Assembly (NCBI GenBank): GCA_903884005.1
Contig: CAISDA010000083.1
Span: 62,001 to 126,000 of the forward strand
Length of the DNA stretch: 64,000 nt
Source of the DNA: an uncultured Ignavibacteriota bacterium
Lineage (GTDB): Bacteria; Bacteroidota; Ignavibacteria; UBA10030; UBA8401
Reading direction: 5' to 3'
Below, one piece after another: positions 52,192-61,549 of the stretch. The translations under genes were made by a program, and so were the position numbers. Below the pieces are notes generated by a model that made no database searches, was not told the DNA's origin, and saw only the letters and a program-made list of their open reading frames with translations. Within the stretch, counting starts at the first letter, position 1. Every line of letters begins with the position of its first letter.

Positions 52192-54489
52192 CTATTTTTT
52201 TGTTTCCTGGTAGCGCCGGAAGATCGTTATCAAAAACCCGCCGATCATGGCGAACGTGCCCAACCAGACAAGATTGATGAACGGCTTGATCGTCGCTTCG
52301 ACGATGAGCACGTCGCGCTTTTTTGGCGCGCCCGGATCCGGCGGCGTCCGAACGGTCAACGACAGCGTCGCTTTGCTTTCATCCGTTTTGTTCGGGTTCA
52401 CGCTTTTAATGGCCAGCGAAACGGCCGTTCCCGGAATGACCGCCGGTATAAACTGCAACTGGCCTCTCTTGTTCAGCATCAGCACCTGCACCCGGATGAC
52501 CTTCCCGTCGCGAAGCACGTCGATGTTGGCCGCGACACGGTTTCCCGTCTCGGCCGACTGGCTGAATTCATAGCCGCGGTAGGTGACCTTCTCGCCGCCG
52601 GCATCAGCCGTCTCGTTCACATGGAGGGTGATCTCCCGTTCGTTCGATTCTTCGGGCGACTCCAGCGATACCGGGGCAAGATAAAAATCTTTCGTGATCA
52701 GATTCTTCACATCGGGACTCCGCATCAGCCCCATATCTTCGGCCTGGAACATCACCGGTTCAACGATGAATGACCTGCCATTGCCTTCCACTTCCACGGT
52801 GAAGGCGAACCTTCCCCGTTCGGCCGCGTGGTACCCCACATACGTCATCGTGTATCCCATCGACGTCACCTTCCGGCCCTCTTCAAGGGACAGCGTCTGC
52901 TTTTCATCATATTTCGCGGACGACACAAACCCGAGAAACATGAGTGCGATGCCGACATGCGCAAGAGACCCTCCGGCAAGCTTCGGATTGCCTTTCATGA
53001 TCTTGAAACCGATGATGATATTGGCAAACAGCGCGAATGATGACGCGAGGATGAAGATGATCATCGGTAGATGATGGGCGCCGATGACGATGGCTGCAAT
53101 GGTCAGGAGCGCTGCAAGCACGAACGGAAGCAGCAGGCCGTTGAGCACCTCTTTCGCATTCGACCGTTTCCACCAGAGCAATTGCCCGGCGCCCATCAGA
53201 ATCGCGATGAAGATCCCCAGCGGCAGCGTGGTCGTCACATAGAACGACGGATCGACGGCCGAGGGCTTTCCCTGCGTGATGCCCGTGATCAACGGGGCGG
53301 AGGTGCCGATCGCGACAAAGACCGAAATGCAAACGAGCGCCGAGGCTCCGAGGAAGAGCGCGAACTCGCGCGAGAAGAACGAGTGTTCCACCGGCACGAC
53401 CGGCATCTCTTTCCATCGCGTGAAGAACAACCCGAAGCCGAATGCGGCATAGGCAACGATCACGGCGAACAGCATCCAATAGACCCACATGCCCGCATCG
53501 ACGAACGAATGCACCGACGTATCGCCAAGCACACCGCTTCTGGTCAGGAACGTCGCATAGAGCACCATGATGAAGCAGAGCATGCTCAGCACAAAATTCG
53601 TTTTGATAAACGCGCCGCTCCTCCGCTGCGACAGCATCGTGTGGACGGACGCGACACAGACGAGCCATGGCACGAGAGATGAATTTTCAACCGGATCCCA
53701 GCCCCAGAATCCGCCCCACCCGAGCGTTTCGTACGCCCAGTACCCGCCCATGATGATGCCGGTGCCGAGGATCATCGCCCCGAAAATCGTCCATGGCGCC
53801 GCCGCCCGTATCCAGCTCACATAATCGCGCTTCAACATGCCGGCGGCCGCGTAGGAGAACGGCACGGACATGGAGGTGAAGCCGATGAAGAGTATCTGAG
53901 GATGGATGACCATCCAGTAGTTTTGCAATAACGGGTTCAGCCCTTTTCCTTCAACGGGCACCTGGCCCCAGAGGCCCTTGGCCTGATCGATCCAGAGAAA
54001 GGCGCCGTTGGCCGGAAGCGCACCGGCATGGATCAGCTCGTTCGGAAAAACATCCCAGACCATTGCGAACGGGTCTTTCACAATGAGCATGAGCAGAAGG
54101 AACGAAAAGATGGATCCGAACACCATCATCAGTTCGGATTCATAGTTGCGCTTCATTGCATAGCGGGAAAGAAAAATGCCGAGAATGCCTGTGTAGAACG
54201 CCCACAGCATGAAGCTGCCTTCCTGCCCCGCATACGACGTCGAGACAAGCAGCGACAGGGGGAGATCGGTCGAACTGTGGTTCCAGACGTAATAATACTG
54301 AAACTGATGGGTGACAATGTGTTCGATGTGCACGCCCGCAGCGCCGACAATGCCGGCCGCTGCGAGGAAGTAGAGATATCTGCCAATCACCTGAAAACGC
54401 GGGGCATAATTCCGATAGTGTGCAGCATAACAAAGAACGGAGAACAGCGATGCAGCAAAAGCAAGCTTCACGATTACGGCTCCAACCAT
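52192..54489 (-). CDS. ccmF: Cytochrome c heme lyase CcmF
   Basis: A 765-residue polytopic membrane protein with many hydrophobic segments and the tryptophan-rich heme-binding motif WGGFWGWDPVENSSLVPW. CcmF attaches heme from CcmE to apocytochrome c and reduces it. Conserved His residues flank the WWD region (for example HPQILFIGF and HTMLSQRR). A periplasmic region of about 180 residues precedes the last membrane span. GAGGAG sits 5 nt before ATG 54489. Last gene of the ccm operon; two hairpins lie in the 118-nt gap after ccmE. Confidence 0.96.
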   Translation of the reverse strand: MVGAVIVKLAFAASLFSVLCYAAHYRNYAPRFQVIGRYLYFLAAAGIVGAAGVHIEHIVTHQFQYYYVWNHSSTDLPLSLLVSTSYAGQEGSFMLWAFYTGILGIFLSRYAMKRNYESELMMVFGSIFSFLLLMLIVKDPFAMVWDVFPNELIHAGALPANGAFLWIDQAKGLWGQVPVEGKGLNPLLQNYWMVIHPQILFIGFTSMSVPFSYAAAGMLKRDYVSWIRAAAPWTIFGAMILGTGIIMGGYWAYETLGWGGFWGWDPVENSSLVPWLVCVASVHTMLSQRRSGAFIKTNFVLSMLCFIMVLYATFLTRSGVLGDTSVHSFVDAGMWVYWMLFAVIVAYAAFGFGLFFTRWKEMPVVPVEHSFFSREFALFLGASALVCISVFVAIGTSAPLITGITQGKPSAVDPSFYVTTTLPLGIFIAILMGAGQLLWWKRSNAKEVLNGLLLPFVLAALLTIAAIVIGAHHLPMIIFILASSFALFANIIIGFKIMKGNPKLAGGSLAHVGIALMFLGFVSSAKYDEKQTLSLEEGRKVTSMGYTMTYVGYHAAERGRFAFTVEVEGNGRSFIVEPVMFQAEDMGLMRSPDVKNLITKDFYLAPVSLESPEESNEREITLHVNETADAGGEKVTYRGYEFSQSAETGNRVAANIDVLRDGKVIRVQVLMLNKRGQLQFIPAVIPGTAVSLAIKSVNPNKTDESKATLSLTVRTPPDPGAPKKRDVLIVEATIKPFINLVWLGTFAMIGGFLITIFRRYQETKK

Positions 54490-54607: not shown

Positions 54608-54997
54608 CTAGAGCGATTTTTTAACTGCGGTGGAATCGCCATTGTACTTGGAAGGACACTTCGTTAAAATTTCGGTCGCGTGAAATGCGCCGTCGTGGTA
54701 GCGTCCCTTCGCGACGATGCTTGTCGCAATGTCGAAATTATTCGGCTTGGCGCCTTCCAGCACGACCGTTGCTTCCTTTGCGTTATCGTCCTTCATGATG
54801 AAGGTGAACTGGCTTTTTGACGCATCGAACGACGCCTCTTTCTCCTTCATCCATACGCCTTTGACCTGCACTTTTTTTGCGACCGTTTCGGCGCGCGCAA
54901 AGTCCGTATACTCCACGTTGCTTTCAACAAACGACATCGCGCCGAAGATGAGCGCGGCGACGATGACCACCACAGCGATAACGATCTTTAAATTCAT
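54608..54997 (-). CDS. ccmE: Heme chaperone CcmE (Cys variant)
   Basis: A 129-residue protein with one N-terminal membrane anchor (about 3-22) and a periplasmic OB-fold (VQVKGVW, FIMKDDNAKEATVVLEG, VAKGRYHDGAFHATEILTKC). The heme-binding site reads C114-P-S-K-Y118, that is Cys-x3-Tyr in place of His-x3-Tyr of E. coli CcmE. Cys-type CcmE proteins are known from Desulfovibrio and some archaea (system I*). It receives heme from CcmABCD and passes it to CcmF. ATG 54997; 16 nt after ccmD. Confidence 0.93.
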   Translation of the reverse strand: MNLKIVIAVVVIVAALIFGAMSFVESNVEYTDFARAETVAKKVQVKGVWMKEKEASFDASKSQFTFIMKDDNAKEATVVLEGAKPNNFDIATSIVAKGRYHDGAFHATEILTKCPSKYNGDSTAVKKSL

Positions 54998-55013: not shown

Positions 55014-55148
55014 TTACCGCATTGATTTTTCAAGTTTCGATATTTTCGAATCGAGCCGGAACAGATAGAACAAAATTCCGCTCCAGTTAATGAGCACGAC
55101 AAGCATTGCAATATAGAGCTGATTCTTTTCAAAAAAGTCCATGATCAT
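55014..55148 (-). CDS. ccmD: Small membrane protein CcmD-like
   Basis: A 44-codon ORF between ccmC and ccmE. The product has one hydrophobic segment (LYIAMLVVLINWSGILFYLF) followed by a basic, helical tail (RLDSKISKLEKSMR), which is the CcmD pattern: a single-span protein that helps release heme-loaded CcmE from CcmABC. GAGG lies 5 nt upstream of ATG 55148; a second ATG at 55142 is also possible. Assigned mainly from position and topology since CcmD sequence is poorly conserved. Confidence 0.82.
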   Translation of the reverse strand: MIMDFFEKNQLYIAMLVVLINWSGILFYLFRLDSKISKLEKSMR

Positions 55149-55177: not shown

Positions 55178-55888
55178 TTAATGGCGTGATGCCTGGTGTG
55201 TATGTTCAAGCAGCAGCGAACGCACTTTCAAATTGTAGATCCAATAAAAGAACATCGTGAATCCGAAAATGGACGCCAAAAACAGGATCAGCATGTTGGG
55301 CGGCATATGAAGCTGCGCCACGGGAGCCGATCCCATTTCATCGCCTTTCGATCCCGGATGCAATCCCTTCATCACGCGGGGCATCACAAAGATGAAGAAC
55401 GGCGTTGTTGCGCCGGCAATAATGGCATACGCCGATGAGAGTGTCGCTTTCTTTTCCTCATTGTCGATGGCCGAACGCAGTGCAAAGTACGCACTATATA
55501 TTAACAGCAGAATGAAAATGGAAGTTTCACGCGGATCCCAGTTCCAGAACGACCCCCAGTTAAATTTTGCCCACAGCGATCCGGTCAATGTGGCAAGGAT
55601 ACAGAACATGGTGCCCAGCCCTGCGGCGGCCACGGTCCGGATCTCGTCAACATAATTTTTCGTCTTCAAGTACCGGATGCTGAATACGACGCTGACGGCG
55701 AATGCGACCATGGTGGTCCATGCCATCGGCACGTGAAAAATGATATTGCGCGCCTTCTCTTCGAGGCCCGGGATGAGCGGGAGCTCGTACCAATGCTGGG
55801 GAACGGGCACCATCGGCATCGCGAAGCCGAGTATCAGGACAACCGTGATCCAGACAGAGAGAATGATTTTGCTTAACGGTGAAAACAT
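55178..55888 (-). CDS. ccmC: Heme transporter CcmC
   Basis: A 236-residue membrane protein with six hydrophobic segments and the tryptophan-rich motif WGSFWNWDPRETSIFILL; His residues sit in IIFHVPMAW and in the last periplasmic loop. CcmC presents heme to CcmE. It lies 18 nt after ccmB and 29 nt before ccmD. Confidence 0.95.
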   Translation of the reverse strand: MFSPLSKIILSVWITVVLILGFAMPMVPVPQHWYELPLIPGLEEKARNIIFHVPMAWTTMVAFAVSVVFSIRYLKTKNYVDEIRTVAAAGLGTMFCILATLTGSLWAKFNWGSFWNWDPRETSIFILLLIYSAYFALRSAIDNEEKKATLSSAYAIIAGATTPFFIFVMPRVMKGLHPGSKGDEMGSAPVAQLHMPPNMLILFLASIFGFTMFFYWIYNLKVRSLLLEHTHQASRH

Positions 55889-55906: not shown

Positions 55907-56590
55907 TTAATCTTTCCATACATGTTCGAACAAGAGCAGCGACAGCGTGATGATGACTACGGAAAACGACACGAGTATCTGAAATTCCTTCACCGATTCT
56001 CCAAAATACGCACCGTCCGCCGCCATTTTAGTCGCGTTGATCGCGGTCAACAAGAGCGGCAGCAATATAGGGAATGCTAATACGGGGAAAAGAGTTCCCT
56101 TCGTATTGGCTTTGGCGATGATCGCGGCAAGAATTGTGGATGCGCTCGCCAGGCCGATGCTACCCAGGATGATCGCGGTCCAGAAAATGGATTGTGTCCG
56201 CACGACAAAATCCGCCACAACAACCTGATACGCAAGCCCGATAAAAATGTTGAGCGCCAGCGCCAGCAGGCAGTTATAGATCAATTTCCCGACAAAGACA
56301 CTCGTCGAATGCGTCATCAATTGCAGCGTCATCACCGTGCCGCGCTCCTCTTCGGCCACGAAGGAGCGGGACAAACCGGACATGGCGCTGAAAAAAATGA
56401 CGATCCACAGCAGTCCAGAGAGCACGTCCGCAGGCACCGTCTCGCCGCCGAGCGAGAAGAGGATGATGGACAGCGTTGTCACGACAAACATCATCAGCGC
56501 ATTCAACGCATAGCGCGTGCGGAACTCGGAAAGAATTTCTTTTTCGACAAGATAATATGTCGTGGTGATGCTTCGTTTCATGCTCGTCAT
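55907..56590 (-). CDS. ccmB: Heme exporter permease CcmB
   Basis: A 227-residue protein with six hydrophobic segments. The start YYLVEKEILSEFRTRYALNAL and the GLSRSFVAEEERGTVMTLQL segment are typical. It forms the ABC complex with CcmA that releases holo-CcmE. Its start overlaps the ccmA stop by four bases. Confidence 0.94.
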   Translation of the reverse strand: MTSMKRSITTTYYLVEKEILSEFRTRYALNALMMFVVTTLSIILFSLGGETVPADVLSGLLWIVIFFSAMSGLSRSFVAEEERGTVMTLQLMTHSTSVFVGKLIYNCLLALALNIFIGLAYQVVVADFVVRTQSIFWTAIILGSIGLASASTILAAIIAKANTKGTLFPVLAFPILLPLLLTAINATKMAADGAYFGESVKEFQILVSFSVVIITLSLLLFEHVWKD

Positions 56591-57228
56591 GGCCGTTTCA
56601 TCCGTTCCACGGTGACAATGGATCCCGCATAGTCGAGGTCATCCTTGTCGTTCGTTGCAATAATGAGTATGCCGGTCCCCTGCTGCTCACGCATCACGGC
56701 GCGGACGACCGCGATGCCTTCCTCGTCCAGGTTGGCGCATGGCTCGTCCAGCACCAGGAGCGGCGGCTCATGGAGAAGGGCCGCGCAATATTTAAGCCGC
56801 TGCTTCATGCCCGATGAATACGTGCGCAGTTCGTCGTTGCGTTTATCAAACAGACTGAACCGGCGAAGCAAGTCCTCGATCCGGTCGCCGGGAGCCGCAG
56901 AATGATTGCGTATGCGCGCGCACAGGCTGAGATTTTCAATGCCCGTAAATTCGTCGTAAAGATTGATGTACGGTGCCACGAATCCGATATGCGGATACAT
57001 GCGGCCGGGGTATTCGACCGGAGTTCCGTCGATCGTCAGCCCCACGCTGCCCCGCGACGGAGACAGGAGCCCGCACAATATTTTAGCAAGGGTCGATTTC
57101 CCCGCGCCGTTTTTTCCGACGAGCGCCAGAGAGTCTCCGTTGCCGAGCGCGAACGAGATATTCTCGACGATGAGTTTGCGGTTGAACTCCTTGGAGATGC
57201 CCTGTGCGCTGAAGTGTATGGTTGTCAT
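56587..57228 (-). CDS. ccmA: Heme exporter ATPase CcmA
   Basis: A 213-residue ABC ATPase. Walker A GKNGAGKSTLAKIL, signature YSSGMKQRLKYCAALLHEPP, Walker B LLVLDEPCANLD. Its position directly upstream of ccmB and overlapping it identifies it as CcmA. Its start overlaps the stop of the upstream metalloprotease gene by four bases. Confidence 0.93.
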   Translation of the reverse strand: MTTIHFSAQGISKEFNRKLIVENISFALGNGDSLALVGKNGAGKSTLAKILCGLLSPSRGSVGLTIDGTPVEYPGRMYPHIGFVAPYINLYDEFTGIENLSLCARIRNHSAAPGDRIEDLLRRFSLFDKRNDELRTYSSGMKQRLKYCAALLHEPPLLVLDEPCANLDEEGIAVVRAVMREQQGTGILIIATNDKDDLDYAGSIVTVERMKRP

Positions 57229-58823
57229 CGGACCACTGCAAACTTTCCCTTCACGACCGAATCGCCGGCTGTGAGCATGTACAGATACACGCCCGAAGCG
57301 GCAAGATCGCCGTGCGAATTTTTACCGTCCCACACGGCGTACGTGCCGCCGCTGAATGACCGAACCGGGACTGCCCCGGAGTAAATGCCATCATAGCTCG
57401 CCGAGTACACGGTGAGCTGCGGCGCCTCTTTGGCCGACGCGAGCACGATCGGGCCGATATACAGCGGCGATGTTGCGGGATGAAATGGATTGGGGTAACA
57501 GACAACCGCCGGGGTCGCCGCCATTGCCGATGGGAGCACAAAAGTGGATATCCAATTCACCGGGTCGGGCACCGAAAAATTCGTCGACCATCCGTTTGCC
57601 AATTGCGTGCCGCCATCGATCGCCGAGAGCGATGCGCGCAATTGGTAGGTGTACAGATTCGATTGGCTCCCGAGCGCATCGTCCATATTCACGTTGGCAA
57701 CGATGAATGCGGCGGTATCCGCTCCCTTCAGCACCTGCAGATAATTGACGCCGAACCCCTTGCATGAATACTGAAACACCGAGGCGGCGTTTCCGAGCGT
57801 CTGCTGTTCCCGTATGTTCACCGATGGAAACAATCGCGCATCGGCATAGTATCGCACTGAATCGGCCCTCCGCCCTGTGAAATAATTCCAGTAACAGAAT
57901 TCGGAAAATTCTTTCGCCAGCGACGTGTTGTTTTTTTCGAGCACTGTCTTTTCCGCGAGGATCGGTTTCATCGCCGCGATCGATTCCCATGTCTGACGCA
58001 TGATGCCCACGCCGTAGCGCTTCATGAGGAAGATGCTCCAAATCGCGCGTTCATACCCGGCGTACGCACCCAGCGCTGTGTACAGCGAAATATTTTCGAT
58101 ATTCCTGAAATACGTGCCGATATCCTTGACGTAATCTTTTGAGTACGGAAACACCGTGGGCTCCATCGATTCGGCGCTGAGCTCATAAAAATAGAGATCG
58201 TCATACCATACGCCGTACCCGCCGATCTGGATTGCATGGTGGAATTCATGCGCCGCCGTGCTCATCAATGCCGCGAGGCCGATCGTCCGGTATCCCGCCG
58301 CGTAGTCGTTATCGATGTCGATGTACGACGCATACTTCGGTGCTGCAGTCGTGCCGGGCAGAGGCGCCGCGTTATCCCACACCGTTTCGCCGAAATCGTT
58401 CACCACGCGGTCCTGGATGTAAACGTCATACTCATTGCCGCCGCCGTCTCCCTGGTCCGATGGCGGGGCGGCAAAACCGAACGTCGTCACTTCCGCTGTC
58501 CAGACGGAATCGAAGATCCTGGCGACTGTGTCGACATACTGCGCCGCCGTTCCCGAAATTCTCACGCCCGCCGCTGTGACCATCGCAGGCGTGTTGATGC
58601 CAGCGGTGTCAAAATGGATCCGGAATTTTTTTGACGGACTCAGAATGCTCTGCTGCAGTACAGGCCTGACGGACGCTGCCGTCACTTTTCCCTGCACGCC
58701 GAAGGGAGCTGCGGTCAAAAACCGGTCGAACGTAGCGCACTTCTTCCCTTCCGTGAGCTGAGCATCGGCAACGGCCGGAACAACGATGATGGCCCACAGA
58801 CAAATGTTAATGATGCTTCGCAT
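57225..58823 (-). CDS. Secreted HExxH metalloprotease (MXAN_6640-like) with T9SS-like tail
   Basis: A 532-residue exported protein: signal peptide 1-21, then a region with YVDTVARIFDSVW and NEYDVYIQD, then the zinc motif HEFHH (192-196) within AHEFHHAIQ, followed by YDDLYFYELSAESME, which may supply the third ligand. This pattern resembles the MXAN_6640 family of putative metalloproteases. The end (VVCYPNPFHPATSPLYIG, then NSHGDLAASGVYLYMLT) is a T9SS type A-like sorting domain. Substrate unknown. It overlaps the FG-GAP gene upstream by 17 nt and ccmA downstream by 4, so it belongs to the ccm transcript. Confidence 0.82.
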   Translation of the reverse strand: MRSIINICLWAIIVVPAVADAQLTEGKKCATFDRFLTAAPFGVQGKVTAASVRPVLQQSILSPSKKFRIHFDTAGINTPAMVTAAGVRISGTAAQYVDTVARIFDSVWTAEVTTFGFAAPPSDQGDGGGNEYDVYIQDRVVNDFGETVWDNAAPLPGTTAAPKYASYIDIDNDYAAGYRTIGLAALMSTAAHEFHHAIQIGGYGVWYDDLYFYELSAESMEPTVFPYSKDYVKDIGTYFRNIENISLYTALGAYAGYERAIWSIFLMKRYGVGIMRQTWESIAAMKPILAEKTVLEKNNTSLAKEFSEFCYWNYFTGRRADSVRYYADARLFPSVNIREQQTLGNAASVFQYSCKGFGVNYLQVLKGADTAAFIVANVNMDDALGSQSNLYTYQLRASLSAIDGGTQLANGWSTNFSVPDPVNWISTFVLPSAMAATPAVVCYPNPFHPATSPLYIGPIVLASAKEAPQLTVYSASYDGIYSGAVPVRSFSGGTYAVWDGKNSHGDLAASGVYLYMLTAGDSVVKGKFAVVR

Positions 58824-61077
58824 AGTGCAGTGTGATTAGGTTCCGTTTCGGATCTGTGACGATGATGTCCATCGCGCCGTCGCCGTCGATGTCGGCGCAG
58901 CGAAACGCCCCATCGAGGGGGACGTCGAGGATATATTGTTTGTCGAAAAATGTGCCGTTCCCTCTGCCGCGAAGAAAAAAGAGCTCGGAGGTGAGGGCGT
59001 TCATATAGACGATGTCGATCACTCCATCTCCGTCGAAATCCAGGAGCTGCACCTGATCGGCGGCGGCGATGGGGACGGATGCGGCGATCGTTTTCAATTC
59101 ACGGAACTTTCCCTTGCCCGCACCCAATGCCACCCCCAGCGTGTTCGCCGGAGACTGGAAAAAAAGGCAGTCGGTGTACGTATCGCCGTCGAAATCGTCG
59201 AAGTACAGGAAGCATCGCGTGATCACGCTGTCGGGAAACACGTACGACTGCGTGTTCGACCGATAGGAGCCCGTCGAATCGCTGAAGGTAATGCCCAGCA
59301 CGTATTTTCCCGTCAATTGATCGGCATAGACATATGCCAGGTCGGGACGTCCGTCGCAATTGAAATCGTTCACGGCGCCTGCGAGAATTTTTGCGGGAAT
59401 GATCGGCTTGAAACTTCGTTCGATGAATCGCGTGCCGCGCACCTGCTGATAGTACGACAGCGACGATTGAGGCGCGCCGGACGAGACAAAAAATTCTATC
59501 GTTTTATTCTGCACGGCAAGATCGGAAACGATCACCGAGGGATGTTCAGCGGTCGGTATCGTGTAGACCTGCGTTTCAATCTCTCCCTCAGAACCGCCAT
59601 GCCAACCCTCGTTCAGGGAGAGCACTGAGACGCGTGATTTCGCTGCGTGTGCAAAAATAAACGTTAAGGTTGAATCGCTCTTGGCATAGAGGCGCACGGA
59701 CGTCGGCGACGGCACGGTCTCGAACGACATCTGCCCGGTGAACGACGGCGCCGTTCCCGACAGCATCAATGAGAGTGTGGAACTGCCGGCATTGATCACG
59801 GCGATGTCTTCCCTGCCATCCTTGTTGAAATCGCCCGTGGCGAGTGCCAGCGGCACCTTTCCAACAGCGTACGACACGGATGAATGAGCGCCCCTATAGG
59901 CGGTGTCCGCCTTCGCACCGTTATAATAGACCTGTGCTGTGCGTCCTTTTACCGGCACCATGAGCAGATCATCCCTCCCGTCGCCGTCGATGTCGCCATG
60001 CAGCAGCGTTCCCTCACCGCCGCCAAATTGGACCTCTTCATCGTATGAACCGTCTCCCCGGTTGAGATAGAGCGAGATCGAGCCGTTCTCCGAATTCCAC
60101 GCGAGCACGTCATCGAACTGCTTCGACCTGATATGCACCGCTTCAAGGCTCGTCGGTTTGACGTTCATATCCAGCGTCTGTGCAGTATGATATCCTCCCA
60201 GACCGTCGCCGTTACAGAACTGCAGAATTTTTTTTTCGGGGACTCCCATGGCAAAGCCGGTCACGGCCTCGTTGGTGCTGTGCAGGAACACGATCTGCAC
60301 CGAATCCTTTTGGAGCGGCATCACCGTCTGTTCTGCGAATTGCAGATTGCCCATGCCGATCTCGAACAGCATTTCGGCGGAAAGCCAGTTGTAGAGGATG
60401 AGATCGGCAAACGCGTCGCCGTTGAGGCGCCGCACGACAAGATCGCTCACCGGAATGCCCGTAAATAATTCCCTGGGCTCTGTGAATGTGCCGTTGCCCG
60501 CTCCGTGCAACAGCGTCACGCCCGACGACACCTTGCCGTACGTGAGGATGTCGGGAATATTGTCGTTATCGACATCGGCGATCGCCGCATGGTCCGGATA
60601 ATACTTCACGGGATAGCGGACGTCGGCATAGAGCGAATCGGTGTTCGTGCTGAGCAGGAGCTCGAGCTGCCGCTGGTCGCGGCGCACAATGACGATGTCG
60701 TCGATGCCGTCGTTGTTCAGGTCGCCGACGGTCAGCGACGTTGCATCCGTAATTTTAGCGATGGGGATGACCTCGGAAAAAATGCCTTCACCGTTATTTT
60801 TCACGATGACGACCTGTGATGTCGCCGCATCGATGCAGACGATATCGACGTACTGCCGACTGGTATAATGGAGAAAAGCGGGAAGCGTTGGTGTGATCGG
60901 AAACTCGAACGAGCAGGTGATGCCGAGTGATGCAGAACTGCGAATGCCGCCGAACGCAGGCACGGCGCACAGGAGCACCAGCATAAGTGCCGCCGTCCCG
61001 GTGTGGAGCGTGAACGCCGGGCGATCGTGATAAACCGAAATGTCGTTCGGCGTCGGTTCGGCGTCGGTTCTTCTCAT
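58807..61077 (-). CDS. Secreted FG-GAP/VCBS repeat protein
   Basis: A 756-residue protein with a hydrophobic export segment near residues 28-46 (LHTGTAALMLVLLCAVPAFG) and at least seven FG-GAP/VCBS Asp loops: GDLNNDGIDD, ADVDNDNIPD, GDIDGDGRDD, GDFNKDGRED, NDFNCDGRPD, LDFDGDGVID and ADIDGDGAMD. These form an integrin-like beta-propeller. No T9SS tail is apparent; the protein ends with an FG-GAP unit. Start at ATG 61077, 1 nt after the thioesterase stop; the longer frame from 61209 runs inside that gene. Function unknown. Confidence 0.8.
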   Translation of the reverse strand: MRRTDAEPTPNDISVYHDRPAFTLHTGTAALMLVLLCAVPAFGGIRSSASLGITCSFEFPITPTLPAFLHYTSRQYVDIVCIDAATSQVVIVKNNGEGIFSEVIPIAKITDATSLTVGDLNNDGIDDIVIVRRDQRQLELLLSTNTDSLYADVRYPVKYYPDHAAIADVDNDNIPDILTYGKVSSGVTLLHGAGNGTFTEPRELFTGIPVSDLVVRRLNGDAFADLILYNWLSAEMLFEIGMGNLQFAEQTVMPLQKDSVQIVFLHSTNEAVTGFAMGVPEKKILQFCNGDGLGGYHTAQTLDMNVKPTSLEAVHIRSKQFDDVLAWNSENGSISLYLNRGDGSYDEEVQFGGGEGTLLHGDIDGDGRDDLLMVPVKGRTAQVYYNGAKADTAYRGAHSSVSYAVGKVPLALATGDFNKDGREDIAVINAGSSTLSLMLSGTAPSFTGQMSFETVPSPTSVRLYAKSDSTLTFIFAHAAKSRVSVLSLNEGWHGGSEGEIETQVYTIPTAEHPSVIVSDLAVQNKTIEFFVSSGAPQSSLSYYQQVRGTRFIERSFKPIIPAKILAGAVNDFNCDGRPDLAYVYADQLTGKYVLGITFSDSTGSYRSNTQSYVFPDSVITRCFLYFDDFDGDTYTDCLFFQSPANTLGVALGAGKGKFRELKTIAASVPIAAADQVQLLDFDGDGVIDIVYMNALTSELFFLRGRGNGTFFDKQYILDVPLDGAFRCADIDGDGAMDIIVTDPKRNLITLHYAKHH

Positions 61078-61078
61078 G

Positions 61079-61549
61079 TTATCGTGTCCGCCGCTGAAGT
61101 CGCAATTCGCGCCGACGCAGGGCTTCCTTATACCGGCGTACTTCGGTGTCATCCTCGCATGCGATCGGATCCACACGCACGGGTGTCCCTGCGTCGTCGA
61201 TCGCCACAAATGTAAAATAGGCCGAATTGGTGTCGTGCGTTTCGCCAGTCAGCAGGTTCTCGGCCGACACTTTCACGCCAACTTCCATCGACGATGAGAA
61301 GACACGGTTCACAGACGCCAGCAGCGTCACCACTTCGCCCTGTTTCACGGGGTGTATGAAATTGATCTCATCGACCGATGCCGTCACGCAGACGTGCTTC
61401 GAATGCCGCATTGCCGCGATGGCGGCAACCAGATCCATCCAATGCATCAACTGCCCGCCGAGCAGGTTGCCGAGCATGTTCGTTTCGTCCGGCAGCACCA
61501 ATTGCGTCATATTGGCCTGCGACGTCTTGACGGTTCTTAATCCGTTCAT
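61079..61549 (-). CDS. Acyl-CoA thioesterase (YciA/BACH-type hotdog)
   Basis: A 156-residue hotdog-fold protein. LPDETNMLGNLLGGQLMHWM with catalytic Asn/Asp positions, then FIHPVKQGEVVTLLASVNRV and DTNSAYFTFVAID, match the YciA/acyl-CoA hydrolase family, which releases CoA from medium- or long-chain acyl-CoAs. It overlaps bamD by four bases and is 1 nt from the FG-GAP gene, so all are probably cotranscribed. Confidence 0.9.
   Translation of the reverse strand: MNGLRTVKTSQANMTQLVLPDETNMLGNLLGGQLMHWMDLVAAIAAMRHSKHVCVTASVDEINFIHPVKQGEVVTLLASVNRVFSSSMEVGVKVSAENLLTGETHDTNSAYFTFVAIDDAGTPVRVDPIACEDDTEVRRYKEALRRRELRLQRRTR

Follow-up and report, generated by a model that had tools for sequence, protein, structure and literature searches.

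The ccm operon of the window, the 64,000-nucleotide stretch of contig CAISDA010000083.1 analysed here, most likely encodes a System I* pathway for cytochrome c maturation in an Ignavibacteria-class bacterium (probability about 0.87). ORF reading together with Pfam and NCBIfam profiles placed the genes in the order ccmA-B-C-D-E-F, with the whole operon on the minus strand. The gene for the periplasmic heme chaperone, ccmE (54608-54997), encodes a 129-aa protein that matched Pfam PF03100 with 53.9 bits (cut-off 24.6). Direct reading of its residues 114-118 (54644-54658, context TKCPSKY) gave CPSKY, with C114 and Y118, in agreement with the earlier note's description of a CcmE carrying Cys in place of His. 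The 765-aa heme lyase / holocytochrome c synthase is encoded by ccmF (52192-54489; Pfam Cytochrom_C_asm and CcmF_C). The small membrane protein CcmD (44 aa, 55014-55148) exceeded the cut-offs of both Pfam CcmD_alt (26.6 bits, cut-off 23.5) and TIGR04391 (26.7 bits, cut-off 24), as did the permease gene ccmB (55907-56590) that of Pfam CcmB (58.2 bits, cut-off 24.9). For ccmC (55178-55888), assigned to heme delivery to CcmE, Pfam Cytochrom_C_asm matched and the best NCBIfam score, 104.5 bits with TIGR01191, was below the cut-off of 186. The ATPase gene ccmA (56587-57228), which overlaps ccmB by 4 bases, matched Pfam ABC_tran and was named by its neighbourhood because its TIGR01189 score (99.2 bits) was below the cut-off of 131.6. 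No thioredoxin-like gene was found within ccmABCDEF among the ORFs and Pfam matches of the locus. Directly upstream of ccmA, with a 4-base overlap, is a gene for an MXAN_6640-type putative metalloprotease (57225-58823; 159.7 bits, cut-off 140), which is itself preceded by an 800-residue FG-GAP repeat ORF (58807-61209).

CPSKY stands where E. coli CcmE has HDENY. Of 296 phylum genomes sampled evenly, 193 have CcmE, and the motif was read in 108 distinct genomes (30 loci from the CcmE search, 80 regions across genera and the source genome, minus three duplicates). This reading sample favoured higher-scoring matches, spread over genera, and left out 85 of the 193, among which a rare His-type could occur. 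CPSKY or CPSRY was present in all 108 and His in none. C114 and Y118 were invariant in the same 108 genomes, against a mean commonest-residue frequency of 0.52 per column, indicating that Cys114 is neither a chance substitution nor a sequencing error. One relative (L028) reads TQCPSKY. A separate set in which CPSKY occurred at 80 of 80 loci says nothing about how frequent the motif is, since these loci were retrieved by searching for LTKCPSKY. Among the named relatives, those with the closest CcmE were Ignavibacteria and unplaced Bacteroidetes metagenome assemblies, which makes Ignavibacteria the most likely class of the source organism; these names are also the basis on which the phylum is labelled Bacteroidota here.

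In the AlphaFold2 model of CcmE (pLDDT 87.7), the N-terminus forms a helix and an OB-like barrel is present. Its best match in a search of solved structures was CcmE 8ce8_E, and the CcmE entries 1lm0, 1j6q, 1sr3 and 2kct were also recovered. Residues 1587-1650 of PDB 9hcj_R0 (Dictyostelium Nup160) gave a weak CcmE profile match (E = 0.0034) and were also recovered when the CcmE model was compared with solved folds (E = 0.0043); this resemblance may be only the common OB-type fold. The CcmE phylogeny suggested in the earlier note was run crudely, on a small set of short sequences without Desulfovibrio. Two Cys-type Bacillota sequences grouped with the His-type and the Halobacterium sequence, apart from most phylum sequences, in a tree whose deep nodes had low support and which says little.

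The source genome (4.53 Mb in 89 contigs, rated 100% complete) contained a single CcmE, of the Cys-type, and neither CcmH (PF03918, E threshold 0.001), CcmI nor ResB (PF05140) was matched anywhere in it. The absence of ccmH and ccmI that had been claimed for the neighbourhood of the operon thus extends to the genome at the thresholds used, and a second CcmE with HxxxY accompanied by ccmH elsewhere, named beforehand as the contrary observation, was not found. In other words, the genome has neither the HxxxY CcmE plus CcmH of classical System I nor the ResB of System II (ResBC / CcsBA). The CcmH search matched 4 of 14 control genomes, including E. coli, and did not match Methanosarcina, which has CcmE and is reported to be CcmH-less in PMC9084895; the search therefore separates both states, and it is a CcmH diverged beyond PF03918 that could escape detection. 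The absence of CcmI is weaker evidence, because the CcmI model matched only 2 of the 14 control genomes and missed E. coli, and hence misses fused or divergent forms. The source genome does encode CXXCH proteins to mature: it had six Cytochrome_CBB3 matches, four of them above cut-off, with a CXXCH ORF at each of the six loci. Two DsbD_TM (CcdA-like) genes were also found.

The pairing of a Cys-type CcmE with the lack of CcmH, which the earlier note had drawn, is true of the source genome, but the two features are separable. Two Bacillota plasmid operons combine a CPSKY CcmE with CcmH and a 660-residue CcmF, indicating that Cys-type and CcmH-lessness are not mechanistically coupled per se. According to section 8 of PMC3601427, about a third of Cys-type bacteria retain CcmH.

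We then compared CcmF sequences, for which 57 of 80 loci yielded a frame of at least 650 residues. The four His residues aligned to E. coli H173, H261, H303 and H491 were kept in 58 of 58 CcmFs (the window and these 57 relatives), and the WWD motif of the window CcmF reads WGGFWGWD. The AlphaFold2 model of the window CcmF (pLDDT 86.2) aligned with CcmF 6zmq over 560 residues (Z 37.1, rmsd 2.8). In this model an enlarged periplasmic beta domain, at about residues 529-736 (52282-52905, minus strand), consisted entirely of strands, and solved-structure searches with the whole CcmF model found no relative of this distal domain beyond CcmF itself. When domain length was taken as the number of residues from the H491 column to the last helix, the window CcmF had 223, compared with 115 in E. 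coli, 116 in Metabacillus and 114 in Pseudonocardia, all three of which are CcmH-bearing. The Halobacterium CcmF had 235, with no CcmH annotated within its 17-kb locus. Among the 57 phylum CcmFs, 53 measured 208-293, three 371-375 and one 120. ResB matched within the distal part of the beta domain in 8 of the 16 phylum CcmFs for which the match was positioned (sets of 6 and 10), one of them, L112, above the Pfam cut-off, and in none of four CcmH-bearing CcmFs, two of which matched ResB only further upstream. Matches to ResB at any position were found in 15 of 46 members of the CcmF alignment, the window CcmF not being among them.

PMC10663686 reports that CcsBA has a periplasmic beta cap and that CcmF has a beta-stranded domain. 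The enlarged, partly ResB-like beta domain of the phylum CcmF might make CcmH dispensable, the apocytochrome being bound and presented by one protein as in CcsBA; the small classical domain would then be a reduced form, with CcmH having assumed the lost part. In line with this idea, a Cys-type Bacillota operon that retains CcmH has a CcmF with the small domain. We regard this substitution as conceivable but doubtful and did not adopt it, because intact small domains were present in the CcmFs of L044, whose genome (G014) has no CcmH match, and of L157 (of these two genomes, the CcmH search covered G014), leaving the replacement of CcmH by the CcmF domain unproven. We offer the correlation between the size of this domain and CcmH as a hypothesis, a testable lead with known exceptions.

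A different explanation is that the usual CcmH function is carried out by a diverged CcmH that went unrecognised, in which case the operon would belong to an ordinary System I whose CcmE happens to be of the Cys-type. The classic CcmH motif is LRCxxC, and the annotated CcmH in the Cys-type ccm operon of a Metabacillus plasmid (L217, 10304-10804) has GCTDSMTADYC instead, indicating that CcmH can diverge. Across the 296 phylum genomes, PF03918 matched in seven, two of them above cut-off. As candidates for a hidden CcmH these weak matches were rejected on reading, none being an ordinary CcmH: one was sensor-kinase-like (L037) and six were zinc-ribbon proteins of the class (L032 1216-2004; L033 1258-2016; L034 1210-1971; L035 1111-2022; L036 1162-2130; L038 1168-2130). 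The presence in six class genomes of these proteins, which have two tandem CcmH-like cysteine domains (CxCGxC...CxC), speaks for a diverged CcmH. However, a profile built from the six found full-length copies in only 8 of the 296 genomes and none in the source genome; most of the weaker matches among those listed covered the zinc ribbon, with which the model begins. In addition, no ccm gene was recognised in the 3.2-kb loci of the zinc-ribbon genes, and in L033, the one copy inspected, the neighbouring gene is FtrD-like. Taken together, these results make a diverged CcmH improbable as the explanation for the source system. Small proteins with a VFQDxMDWNVISD-like motif were seen near the zinc-ribbon genes.

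The distribution of ResB bears on a further possibility, that CcmABCE serves heme export or trafficking unrelated to cytochrome c maturation, and that a different system matures the c-type cytochromes. ResB, which marks System II, matched in 119 of the 296 phylum genomes, yet the source genome had no such match, the catalytic residues of its CcmF are kept and only 3 of the 296 genomes lacked both CcmE and ResB, so that this explanation is very hard to credit. In the same tabulation 174 genomes had CcmE only, 100 had ResB only and 19 had both, the last being an upper figure because at least two of the ResB matches (G128 and G223) lie in ccmF itself when coordinates are compared. These results support the assignment to System I* and show that the Cys-type set-up is the standard version of Ccm in the phylum. 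The source organism is ordinary for its group, because the relatives that were read also have a Cys-type CcmE and no CcmH; the variant proposed in the earlier note was supported as a reading of the operon but is no special case.

In the System I* reading, CcmABCD would load heme onto Cys114 of CcmE, and CcmF would pass it from CcmE to the CXXCH of the apocytochrome without CcmH or CcmI. Both the covalent attachment of heme to the CcmE cysteine and the action of CcmF without CcmH are inferred by analogy with the Desulfovibrio and Methanosarcina systems; we found no biochemistry on cytochrome c maturation in the phylum. A search of the open-access literature, with subscription papers outside its range, found no statement of a Cys-type CcmE for Bacteroidota or Ignavibacteria. 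In section 8 of PMC3601427, Cys-type CcmE is named for delta-proteobacteria, Chloroflexi, Firmicutes and archaea. Because the Cys-type was the only CcmE type in this phylum sample, many more organisms become available for study, and the phylum offers an opportunity to examine how heme is released from a cysteine-linked carrier and how CcmF acts without CcmH.

Classical System I of E. coli resembles the source system in having CcmA-F and in the His residues and WWD motif of CcmF. It differs in the HDENY of its CcmE, in having CcmG and CcmH beside ccmF, and in a CcmF of 647 aa with a small beta domain. The Ccm systems of Desulfovibrio and Methanosarcina are further close counterparts, and the window operon has the same parts. 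Section 8 of PMC3601427 describes a Desulfovibrio CcmE that binds heme covalently via Cys and an operon that needs neither CcmH nor CcmG to make holocytochrome in E. coli. Desulfovibrio belongs to another phylum, and CcmI, for which the source genome gave no match, is said in the same source to raise cytochrome c production in System I*. PMC9084895 reports that Methanosarcina CcmE requires its Cys for heme attachment and that M. acetivorans, like the source organism, combines a Cys-type CcmE with the lack of CcmH and CcmI. In M. acetivorans, however, the ccm genes lie scattered, with ccmF divided into two and ccmD reportedly missing, whereas the source organism has a single ccmF and a ccmD in one operon. 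According to the same paper, CXXXY is universal in the CcmE of archaea, and archaea have no ccmD. On a Halobacterium noricense plasmid (L220, 12937-13311 and 4135-4254), CcmE ends in VRAHEGEERPDDV, a stretch that contains no HxxxY and no CxxxY, and the gene beside ccmC is annotated as encoding a CcmD family protein; both observations sit badly with these archaeal statements. Section 8 of PMC3601427 gives CPSKY as the most frequent Cys-type motif of bacteria, with 25 of 36 genomes. System I* with CPSKY is already known, and the source operon adds a member to it.
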